Origin: Clostridium sp. 'deep sea' | Lineage (GTDB): Bacteria > Bacillota > UBA994 > PWPR01 | Assembly: GCF_014931565.1 (NCBI RefSeq) | Contig: NZ_CP063353.1 | Location: 1,178,001-1,242,000 of the forward strand | DNA: 64,000 nucleotides | Reading direction: 5' to 3' | In this document: positions 51,647 through 54,738 of the stretch, piece after piece | Numbering within the stretch: position 1 is the stretch's first letter | Layout: every line of letters starts with the position of its first letter | The notes under the pieces: generated by a model | Told to the model about the DNA's origin: nothing | Database searches by the model: none | Seen by the model: only the letters and a program-made list of their open reading frames with translations | Program-made: the position numbers and the translations under genes

Positions 51647-53488
51647 TTATTCTCCTTTTGTTAACATAACACTTGTTTTTAAGTTTGGGCAAACCCCACA
51701 GTCAGTACAAACATCGTGACGACAATCTGGAGTAACTGTAGCCTTTAAGGCCTGTTGATACTCACTCCACAGATGTTCTTTATTTACACCACAACTTAGG
51801 TGATCCCATGGTAAAATCTCACTAAATTCACGTTCTCTATTTGCATAAAACGCTGGATCCACATTACATTCATTAAATGCATTAAGCCAAATGTTCCAAT
51901 CAAAATGTTCATCCCAGCTATCTAGTTTAGCACCATTGTTGATAGCAGTAGCAATAACCTTACCAACACGGCGATCACCACGAGCTAACACAGCCTCTAA
52001 AAAGCTGGTAATGGCATCATGATAATTAAACTTAATATAACGGTGACGCTTAAATGAGCTTAAAATATGTTGCTGTTTTTCTTGTAACTGCTCTACAGTA
52101 TTTTGGGCCACCCATTGAAATGGGGTGTAAGGTTTTGGTACAAAACCTGCTGCACTTACGGTAACATTAATAGGGCCATGTTTACCTAACTTAGCAGTAT
52201 TTAACGCCATATTATATATACCATTAAGGTCTTCTTCTTGTTCCGTCGGCAAACCAATCATAAAGTAAAGTTTTGCTCTCTTCCATCCTGCTTCAATTGC
52301 CTTAGCAACAGTAGTGTAGAGATCGTTTTCTGTTACCTGCTTATTTATTACATCACGTAATCGTTGAGTACCTGCCTCGGGTGCTAAAGTTAACCCACTA
52401 CGCCGTACTCTTTGCACCTCTTTAGCTAGCTCTATATCGTAATTATCTACCCGTAAGGATGGCAAAGATATACTCACTTTTTCGGGTATTAATATTTCAT
52501 TAAGATCCTTTATTAATTCGTGTATGCATGTGTAGTCACTACTGCTTAGTGACATTAATGATACCTCATCATATCCTGTGTTTTTTATTAGCTGTTTTAC
52601 TTGCTGTTTAAGTGTTTCTACACTGCGTTCCCGAACAGGTCTATATACAAAGCCAGCTTGACAAAACCTACAGCCACGCAAACAGCCTCTAAATAATTCT
52701 AGTACTACTCGCTCATGGGGTACCTCAATAAAAGGAACAATTGGCTTTAAAGGATAAGCAATCTTGTCCATATCGCTTATTATTCTTTTCTCAACAACCT
52801 CAGGAGCAGCTTTATTTAAAACCTTTACTTCTTTTATGGTGCCATCATTGTGATAGCTAAACTCATAAAATGCTGGTATATAAACACCCTTAAAAGAGGC
52901 AATAGTCTGTAGAAACTCTACACGGCTAGCCCCTTGCTTTTTCCACTCACTGTGAGCGTTCAAAATCTCAACTAAAACCTCTTCACCTTCACCTAATACC
53001 ACTATATCTAAAAAATCAGCTATAGGCTCTGGATTGTAAGCACATGGTCCTCCGGTAATAACAAAAGGATCTTTCACACAACGGTCTTTGCTTAAAAGCG
53101 GTATATTAGCAAGCTTAATCATATTTAAAACACCAGAATAGCTAAGCTCATACTGCAAAGTAAAACCTAAAAAGTCATACTCATTTACAGCCCTATGCTC
53201 TTCTAATGTAAATAACGGTATATTGTTCTCTTTCATTAACTTTTCCATATCAACATAAGGCTCAAATACCCTTGCTGCCAAAGCATTATCTTGGCTGTTA
53301 ACTATATTATATAAAATTTGAAAGCCAGGGTGGGACATGGCTATATCATATATATCTGGAAAAGCCAATGCCATGGTGGTATCAACTTTATTAAAATCTT
53401 TATGCACACTATTTACTTCGTTTCCTATATAACGTGCAGGACGTTGCACAAAAGGTAATAATTTCTCTATTTTATCTCTATAAATCAT
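51647..53488 (-). CDS. Radical SAM protein with B12-binding-like N-terminus (TIGR03960 type)
   Basis: The 613-residue protein has an N-terminal Rossmann part (about 1-230: VDTTMALAFPDIYDIAMSHP, VLGEGEEVLVEIL), the radical SAM cluster CLRGCRFCQAGFVYRPVRER (CxxxCxxC, about residue 270) and a C-terminal cysteine-rich tail (CRHDVCTDCGVCPN). This is the TIGR03960 family, uncharacterised. It precedes the DUF2344 gene and rng, a common Clostridial order. The gap to the M50 protease gene upstream holds an unusual palindrome array. Confidence 0.88.
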   Translation of the reverse strand: MIYRDKIEKLLPFVQRPARYIGNEVNSVHKDFNKVDTTMALAFPDIYDIAMSHPGFQILYNIVNSQDNALAARVFEPYVDMEKLMKENNIPLFTLEEHRAVNEYDFLGFTLQYELSYSGVLNMIKLANIPLLSKDRCVKDPFVITGGPCAYNPEPIADFLDIVVLGEGEEVLVEILNAHSEWKKQGASRVEFLQTIASFKGVYIPAFYEFSYHNDGTIKEVKVLNKAAPEVVEKRIISDMDKIAYPLKPIVPFIEVPHERVVLELFRGCLRGCRFCQAGFVYRPVRERSVETLKQQVKQLIKNTGYDEVSLMSLSSSDYTCIHELIKDLNEILIPEKVSISLPSLRVDNYDIELAKEVQRVRRSGLTLAPEAGTQRLRDVINKQVTENDLYTTVAKAIEAGWKRAKLYFMIGLPTEQEEDLNGIYNMALNTAKLGKHGPINVTVSAAGFVPKPYTPFQWVAQNTVEQLQEKQQHILSSFKRHRYIKFNYHDAITSFLEAVLARGDRRVGKVIATAINNGAKLDSWDEHFDWNIWLNAFNECNVDPAFYANREREFSEILPWDHLSCGVNKEHLWSEYQQALKATVTPDCRHDVCTDCGVCPNLKTSVMLTKGE

Positions 53489-53515: not shown

Positions 53516-53872
53516 CCTTATCGTAAGGGGAAAAGATAGTCGGGGATTTTCTGTGAAAATGGGGTGGTGATTGCCTACTAGGCAATCAGGGGTGGGCAAC
53601 CCTTTAGGTTGCGGGGTGGATTTGAGCTTCGCTCTACATGGAGTTGATAACCCTGCGGGTTATGGGGTATACTCGCCTTTGGCTTCGTGGTAAATCACGT
53701 AAGCGAAGCAAAACGTATAACTCCTATTTGCGTAGCAAATCTATACCGCGAACGAAGTGAGCCCACTCCGTTTTGACTTGTCAAAACCCACCCCACGCAG
53801 GCGTCAGCCGAGTCCACCCCGTATTTGATTTATCAAATACCCACCCCACGATGCTGTAGGCGAGTCCACCCC
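53516..53872. repeat. Array of short palindromes joined by GGGGTGG / CCACCCC words
   Basis: The left half carries GGGGTGG at 53561, 53589 and 53613; the right half carries CCACCCC at 53788, 53814, 53841 and 53866. Between them are short perfect hairpins: TGATTGCC/GGCAATCA (53568-53588), GCAACC/GGTTGC (53596-53612), GAGC/GCTC, ATAACCC/GGGTTAT, ATTTGC/GCAAAT, GTTTTGA/TCAAAAC and GTATTTGA/TCAAATAC (53821-53840). The words face each other so the region could also fold as one large structure. It is more GC-rich than its surroundings and has no gene. Confidence 0.75.
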
Positions 53873-54738
53873 TATATATCTTTTAACCGAACAGTTGGTC
53901 CAAACTTACGAACCGCTCGCATTATTTGGGTTTCGGATAATCTTCCTACTACGTTACCACTAAAGCCTATTAGCACCACTATATTAAATTTACCGGGTAT
54001 AAATTGATTAATAACTTTTTTAGCTACTGTATTCTCTGAGGCGGTTAGGGTATTGGTATTCCATACTTTTTTTTGTACTGGGTTTTCTTTTATAAGATAG
54101 TGTTTAATAAATTGCAGGCGGTAGGTTCTGTACTCTAAAAAAAAGTTTAGCAACAAAAATAATCCCATAATTAATAGGGTTATGTTTACCAATTTAAATA
54201 TTATGCCAATTACTGAACCTATTATTAAAATCACTATTATTACTATACTTATTAACAAAATATATTTAGTAGCGTTAATGTAACCGCGGCTTTTTACTAA
54301 CATAGCTCTGTAAACTCTGCCACCGTCTAGGGGTAATATAGGTAGTAGATTAAATAGTACTAAAAGGACATTGCCCTTAACAAATATTTGGGTCACAGAT
54401 TGCCAATGTAAAGGAATAATACTGTTGCCTAGAATAGCAAATGCTAACATTAATATGTTGACAATGGGTCCTGCCATTGCAAGTTTAATTTCTTTATTAG
54501 GCTCTATTTCATTACCACTAGCTATACGTACTCTGCCCCCCAAGGGTAGCAAATTAATCTCATACACGTTTAGTTTAAGGTATAATGCCATTATTATGTG
54601 CCCTATTTCATGGGCTAAAACCAATACAAAAAAAATCGAAATAGCCATTAATTGAGCATTAACTGCAGCAAACGTTAGTAAAATAAAAAAAAGAGGGCTT
54701 ATTTTTATTTTTACCCCCGCCAATTGGCCTAATGTCAT
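53872..54738 (-). CDS. SpoIVFB-like M50 intramembrane metalloprotease
   Basis: The 288-residue protein has HEIGH (about residue 43) in a membrane helix and NLLPILPLDGGRVYRAML (second metal motif, D in PLDGG), the site-2-protease signature. A C-terminal CBS-like part follows. In Bacillus SpoIVFB activates pro-sigma-K; here it lies one base after a SpoIVFA-like gene, which supports that role. The stop codon overlaps the last CCACCCC word of the repeat array. Confidence 0.85.
   Translation of the reverse strand: MTLGQLAGVKIKISPLFFILLTFAAVNAQLMAISIFFVLVLAHEIGHIIMALYLKLNVYEINLLPLGGRVRIASGNEIEPNKEIKLAMAGPIVNILMLAFAILGNSIIPLHWQSVTQIFVKGNVLLVLFNLLPILPLDGGRVYRAMLVKSRGYINATKYILLISIVIIVILIIGSVIGIIFKLVNITLLIMGLFLLLNFFLEYRTYRLQFIKHYLIKENPVQKKVWNTNTLTASENTVAKKVINQFIPGKFNIVVLIGFSGNVVGRLSETQIMRAVRKFGPTVRLKDI

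Follow-up and report, generated by a model that had tools for sequence, protein, structure and literature searches.

What is the G+C-rich array of short hairpins that lies between a spoIVFB-like gene and a radical-SAM gene in the window (the whole 64,000-nt stretch of DNA that was analysed), and how did it come to be there? The original prediction described three GGGGTGG words facing four CCACCCC words, and the word positions bear this out: GGGGTGG occurs on the plus strand at 53561, 53589 and 53613 and, read as CCACCCC, on the minus strand at 53788, 53814, 53841 and 53866. The window contains 9 GGGGTGG/CCACCCC matches compared with 1.32 expected, a number reached in none of 100 shuffles. The inserts between the words are hairpins of 15–21 nt, unlike one another in sequence and similar in size, as had been described. 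Variant linkers (GGAGTTG at 53640, GGGGTAT at 53664 and CCACTCC at 53763) lengthen both arms towards the core and, when these are counted, the array has more than seven units. Its G+C content is 0.52, compared with 0.31 for the window. Two classes of hairpin can be told apart: class A is a perfect palindrome of variable sequence, and in class B, two outer pairs and an inner stem that varies are separated by an internal loop of the TC or TT / (N)TC type. The features of the locus, with the basis of each assignment in parentheses, are as follows.

51647–53488, minus strand: host gene encoding a radical SAM protein (PF19864/PF04055)
53541–53872, about 332 bp, no strand assigned: whole element, read as inserted: a core flanked by two hairpin arrays that face each other (alignment to the empty site of the same-genus genome G001; fold z)
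53546–53560, plus strand: outermost hairpin of the plus-strand arm, ATTTTC-TGT-GAAAAT (sequence)
53561–53567, plus strand: first GGGGTGG linker (word match)
53568–53588, plus strand: class A hairpin TGATTGCCTACTAGGCAATCA (hairpin classification)
53589–53595, plus strand: second GGGGTGG linker (word match)
53596–53612, plus strand: class A hairpin GCAACCCTTTAGGTTGC, with an identical hairpin in two other genomic copies (hairpin classification)
53613–53619, plus strand: third GGGGTGG linker (word match)
53620–53639, plus strand: class B (internal-loop) hairpin ATTTGAGCTTCGCTCTACAT (same insert classed as B in copy L070)
53640–53670, plus strand: variant linker GGAGTTG, class A hairpin ATAACCCTGCGGGTTAT and variant linker GGGGTAT (sequence)
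53671–53688, plus strand: class B hairpin ACTCGCCTTTGGCTTCGT (same insert in copy L059)
53689–53762, no strand assigned: core, CACGTAAGCGAAGC...ATTTGCGTAGCAAAT...GCGAACGAAGTGAGC (other copies have similar segments, some in one orientation and some in the other)
53763–53769, minus strand: GGAGTGG linker, CCACTCC on the plus strand (sequence, pattern search)
53770–53787, minus strand: class A hairpin GTTTTGACAAGTCAAAAC (hairpin classification)
53788–53794, minus strand: GGGGTGG linker (word match)
53795–53813, minus strand: class B hairpin ACTCGGCTGACGCCTGCGT (hairpin classification)
53814–53820, minus strand: GGGGTGG linker (word match)
53821–53840, minus strand: class A hairpin GTATTTGATAAATCAAATAC (hairpin classification)
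53841–53847, minus strand: GGGGTGG linker (word match)
53848–53865, minus strand: class B-like hairpin ACTCGCCTACAGCATCGT, inner stem mutated and left unclassified by the script (hairpin classification)
53866–53872, minus strand: terminal GGGGTGG linker, the first G of which (53872) completes the TAG stop of spoIVFB (sequence, gene coordinates, alignment)
53872–54738, minus strand: host gene encoding a SpoIVFB-like M50 peptidase (PF02163, 9.3e-17)

Alignment with related genomes identifies the array as an insertion into a site that is empty in relatives. In G001, a genome of the same genus, the array is absent, the spoIVFB product (66% identical) ends in ...VKIKNIE* and the radical-SAM gene (70% identical) begins ∼50 nt past the end of spoIVFB; this is the one site compared at base level, with flanking proteins 66–70% identical. 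The segment 53488–53540, common to the window and G001 (ACTATCTTTTC...TAAGGTATAATTAATAT.TGGGGTGA), holds the TATAAT-like box and the RBS of the radical-SAM gene and, because this flank is conserved, the left end of the insert is placed at about 53541. At the opposite end, the GAA TAA of G001 (last codon and stop) is replaced by TAG in the window spoIVFB. Since the last G of this TAG is supplied by the terminal GGGGTGG, the insert begins at the last codon of spoIVFB. The array had been delimited as 53516–53872, and by the empty-site comparison the right end of that interval stands while the left end does not; the array does overlap the spoIVFB stop, by a single base. In G003 (same class) and in Thermoanaerobacter thermocopriae only ∼60 nt separate the spoIVFB and radical-SAM matches, which polarises the change as a gain. 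A decayed gene had been named as one finding that would speak against the prediction, and the comparison returned a short empty interval in G001 with no decayed gene in it. No target-site duplication was seen at the single empty site compared (window versus G001). Immediately outside the element, AAAAGATA (53531–53538) and TATCTTTT (53877–53884) are 8-bp inverted copies of each other on opposite sides of the insertion. One of the two lies in coding sequence, and the pair may be due to chance or may be part of the target.

The unit is by no means confined to this locus, and the second outcome named as contrary to the prediction, a lack of recurrence, did not arise. A search of the 3.83-Mb single-contig genome for other such arrays, as had been proposed, gave 58 matches to the pattern GGRGTGG–insert–GGRGTGG compared with 1 in a reversed control, and blastn with the array interval found dozens of further places in the same genome. 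From the ∼40 loci read we count roughly 35–45 scattered copies, a figure that rests on the pattern and BLAST searches. A typical full copy is 200–500 bp long and consists of an arm of linkers and hairpins, a core and a mirror-image arm. The linker consensus is GGNNTGG, with GGGGTGG the commonest form, followed by GGTTTGG, GGAGTGG and GGTGTGG. According to a motif tally, the core is partly conserved among copies and occurs in either orientation; for the window core, the supporting blastn match is 81% identical over 153 nt to positions 897803–897956 of the same genome. A motif search for a universal core gave patchy results, and no identical recent copies were seen among those in this genome. 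Four tandem copies of a half-element with a period of ∼265 bp, starting CCCGCGCCAGCCC, lie at about 643.5–644.5 kb (L052, 4840–5830), and CCCGCGCCAGCCC is a recurrent inner box that is present in other copies too. Beyond this genome, a triple linker word was matched in 6 of 398 genomes of the phylum and had hairpin inserts only in this genome and in G001, although the triple-word pattern leaves out the longer units of G046, which were seen by a separate search. Plasmid and phage collections contained no match to the array; viral contigs often matched the bare triple word, yet the inserts there were not hairpins.

These distributions bear on two of the alternatives. Regular alternation of constant and variable parts could recall a decayed CRISPR array, an integron array or a decayed coding gene. 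A CRISPR array should consist of identical repeats of about 21–48 nt that alternate with unique, non-palindromic spacers and keep one orientation. The constant part here, however, is only 7 nt long, the inserts are palindromic and occur genome-wide, the orientation flips in mid-array and the interval is empty in G001; we reject these identities as scarcely credible, in agreement with the initial view that the array does not follow a CRISPR plan. Alternatively, the arrays could have arisen locally, as replication slipped and switched templates between short inverted repeats, without dedicated mobility. Template-switch repair would fit the perfect palindromes, the tandem duplications (L052, L068) and the variation of hairpin sequences between copies, but unlinked loci have the same linkers, alternation and core segments in common, as well as some identical hairpins, which requires copying between sites. 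We regard growth in place as very improbable. The simplest account of the same tag, the alternation, the common core segments, the occasional identical hairpins and the empty site is a non-autonomous mobile family with structured ends.

The inserts follow a grammar of their own. Among 130 linker–insert–linker units from 30 loci, 46% of the inserts form flush stems of 5 or more pairs, as against 0.8% of inserts after shuffling; the sequences of 51 of the 60 strong-stem inserts are distinct. When 116 distinct inserts were considered, the left half was complementary to the right half of the same insert at 5.0 of 7 positions, compared with 2.39 for shuffled partners (maximum of 2.77 in 2000 shuffles); this own-partner pairing of insert halves is covariation. 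The two hairpin classes alternate along the arms: B was never found next to B (5.0 expected, P = 0.002) and AB or BA neighbours numbered 30 (19.3 expected, P = 0.0009), in a test that is partly post hoc, the classes having been set after the sequences were viewed, though by pairing and not by neighbours. Pairs in the strong hairpins comprise 431 Watson–Crick, 1 G–T, 4 A–C and 12 other combinations, a low G–T count that was drawn from hairpins pre-filtered for Watson–Crick pairing and for which calibration on terminators (G–T versus A–C) was too noisy. Stems that are selected as RNA usually tolerate G–U, and the near-absence of G–T pairs therefore points to maintenance at the DNA level, although for the hairpins as a whole this is suggestive only.

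Facing arms with complementary linkers would also allow the element to fold as a unit. The window interval has a predicted folding energy of −157 kcal/mol, and its z-score is −9.0 for the minus strand and −6.7 for the plus strand. Each of the 19 two-armed copies tested is predicted, for either strand, to fold at energies well below those of dinucleotide shuffles (z from −2.6 to −13.4). In the minimum free energy structures of the 19 copies, 41 of 61 forward linkers are paired with a linker of the opposite arm. The predicted shape is thus a stem of linker duplexes from which hairpins project on both sides, and the models support the proposal that the mirror layout permits one large fold.

We then considered where the copies sit. 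The gene context of 36 copies is convergent in 15 cases, co-directional in 19 and divergent in 2; many of the 36 start within 20 nt of a stop codon, 20 have a terminator-like site within ∼80 nt and many are placed beyond an intrinsic terminator. On a larger scale, 23 of 24 pattern-defined GGRGTGG clusters fall at 0.33–1.69 Mb, which is 36% of the chromosome (P = 7e-10 for a uniform distribution). Among the loci sampled, GC skew switches sign at two places, near 0.55 and 2.5 Mb, so that 0.33–1.69 Mb would correspond roughly to the origin-distal half. Both the 3′-end bias and the chromosome-half bias could reflect target choice or purifying selection.

A position at 3′ ends is also what would be expected of a cis-acting RNA, that is, a structure in a 3′ UTR or between cistrons that has a role in the termination, protection or processing of mRNA (e.g. 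through RNase III) and is kept for the benefit of the host. Such a role would agree with folds that are very stable on both strands and with the setting of the window copy, whose neighbouring genes run in the same direction and are not separated by a terminator. It is harder to reconcile with cores found in both orientations, with the many copies past an intrinsic terminator, with the scarcity of G–T pairs in the strong hairpins and with the relatives that lack an array at this site, and a search of Rfam with the array gave no match, even at an E-value of 5. The early hint that the array acts as transcribed RNA finds no support in the same pairing counts and terminator positions, and we consider a cis-acting RNA improbable.

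If the arrays are mobile DNA, which protein might move them? One copy, at 1430.7–1431.6 kb (L065), carries between its arms an intact gene for a 117-residue S23 protein, the protein of 23S rRNA intervening sequences (IVS) (PF05635, 3.7e-35; TIGR02436; solved relative 2gsc). It is the only one of ∼36 copies to do so, and the window copy has no S23 gene. Complementary flanks were nevertheless found at 12 of 17 S23 loci from this and other genomes, compared with 1.8% of mismatched pairs, when 150 nt on each side of the gene were searched for a complementary stretch scoring at least 11. At the S23 loci of other genomes, which are outside rRNA, the flanks consist of differing short tandem repeats that are complementary between the two sides; typically, GACAGGAGTCAGGAGACAGGAG lies upstream of the gene, with its complement on the downstream side. 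The other S23 gene in this genome (∼1.92 Mb) lies near hairpin arrays with another linker and failed to score in the flank test. Those arrays, with ATGAAGT facing ACTTCAT and hairpin inserts, constitute a second family that is also present in G001. We rank S23 first as the candidate mover because it is the only gene inside an arm pair here and generally lies between complementary repeats.

The tie to a particular gene is loose, since CCACCCC arrays of other lineages adjoin DUF559 genes instead. In G046 and G120, two other Firmicutes, amplified GGGGTGG/CCACCCC hairpin arrays adjoin DUF559 endonuclease genes, one of which, in G046, starts immediately inside the array. DUF559 was rejected as a partner gene in the present genome, where it occurs only as a domain of a 1350-aa protein outside any array. 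In the literature on S23 or DUF559, of which our coverage is incomplete, we found no description of such elements with flanking hairpin repeats. We know of no mechanism for S23 proteins.

The main competing explanation retains a non-autonomous repeat but has it moved, through single-stranded DNA hairpins, by a Y1/HUH tyrosine transposase of the RAYT/TIRYT type, as has been proposed for REPs and REPINs, with S23 as a passenger. Enzymes of the Y1/HUH kind work on DNA hairpins in other systems. The genome encodes 9 Y1_Tnp genes, and class B hairpins, which have a conserved internal loop and are flanked by a constant tag, are reminiscent of the bulged hairpins and tags that RAYTs cut; placement at 3′ ends likewise agrees with REPs (PMC3733652). 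However, the 8 Y1 genes inspected all lie outside GGNNTGG arrays, an IS200-like Y1 gene that abuts an array has separate ends, the long Y1 genes have terminal repeats of their own and GTAG is absent as a constant tag of the arrays. A Y1-driven repeat is thus possible but unlikely. The RAYT-like Y1 genes themselves (∼290–320 aa; L113, L114, L115 and L118), with terminal inverted repeats such as GGGGTCAGGC...GCCTGACCCC and GGGACGGTTCT, resemble published TIRtrons.

On balance, we favour the interpretation, by a modest margin over doubt, that the window array is a gene-less copy of a dispersed, S23-linked, IVS/REP-like mobile element that folds as DNA; its mobility, its folding in vivo and the part played by S23 are what we infer from the comparisons above. 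When single-stranded, the arms of such an element would zip together via their complementary linkers, and the hairpins would branch off the stem at a series of junctions. Recognition may then be of this folded form, most likely as DNA, which would be copied or inserted with a preference for sites just past gene 3′ ends. The elements would be non-autonomous, and the mechanism would involve a protein acting in trans, for which the S23 family is the likeliest source. The window copy would have landed on the last codon of spoIVFB and supplied a new stop codon, leaving the upstream signals of the radical-SAM gene intact, and little effect on the host would be expected.

A bolder proposal, which we put forward tentatively and hold to be rather doubtful, is that these copies represent an unrecorded class of mobile DNA whose ends, in place of simple inverted repeats, are facing arrays of alternating A and B hairpins with a 7-nt tag and whose branched single-stranded DNA is recognised by an S23-family (four-helix-bundle) protein. 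If this were true, a single kind of element would embrace the intervening sequences of rRNA, those S23 genes that lie outside rRNA and many of the Firmicutes ‘hairpin repeats’, and S23 would gain a function. Should S23 genes generally lie between complementary arms outside rRNA, as the flank test suggests, the rRNA IVS would be a special case of a wider type. The mirrored tag/A/tag/B grammar, an empty site at base level and a gene-bearing copy together offer a system for finding the enzyme that recognises the fold.

How does this family compare with known systems? The original prediction held that the array does not match REP or MITE plans, and this view has to be revised: the array is a dispersed, lineage-specific, extragenic palindromic insert and therefore belongs with REP-, MITE- and IVS-type repeats, although its internal grammar is unusual. 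REPs, BIMEs and REPINs are short tagged palindromes found at extragenic 3′ ends in tens of copies and in inverted pairs, and have been proposed to be miniature mobile DNA (PMC3733652). The arrays resemble them in being extragenic, in lying at gene 3′ ends (34 of 36 copies are not divergent) and in being dispersed in tens and paired in inverse orientation. Unlike REPs and REPINs, they lack the defining GTAG or CGTC end tag (the constant tag is GGNNTGG and, while a few inserts begin with GTAG, most do not), and their arms consist of several alternating A and B hairpins around a core, varying in sequence by unit, instead of one or two near-constant REPs. Nor was a cognate Y1 gene flanked by the repeat found at the 8 of 9 Y1_Tnp loci inspected.

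The IVS of Coxiella rRNA is a selfish element with complementary termini (a 28-bp terminal stem) and an S23 gene, the transposition of which is only hypothesised (PMC4990558). As in the 23S rRNA IVS, one array copy carries PF05635 between complementary arms, but the ∼36 copies are intergenic and not in rRNA, the arms are hairpin arrays and not a simple stem, and most copies are gene-less. MITEs likewise are short, non-coding inverted-repeat inserts present in many copies, and the window site is empty in G001, G003 and Thermoanaerobacter; here, however, the ends are complementary linker arrays, with no perfect TIR common to all copies and no matching IS. The DUF559-associated repeats of G046 and G120 share the linker word, the hairpins between linkers, a small accessory gene beside or inside the array and, in G046, the facing arms. 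They differ in having longer, near-identical tandem units, in carrying DUF559 and not S23 and in belonging to other lineages; we note the likeness without claiming homology. Finally, the stem–loop-containing sequence families of Cozzuto et al. 2008 (PMC2267715) are, in the parts of that study available to us, intergenic repeated stem–loops of bacterial genomes whose members share sequence, and the genomes listed there do not include this lineage; the arrays described here share structure and grammar more than sequence. The array family looks like a bacterial mobile element of undescribed design.
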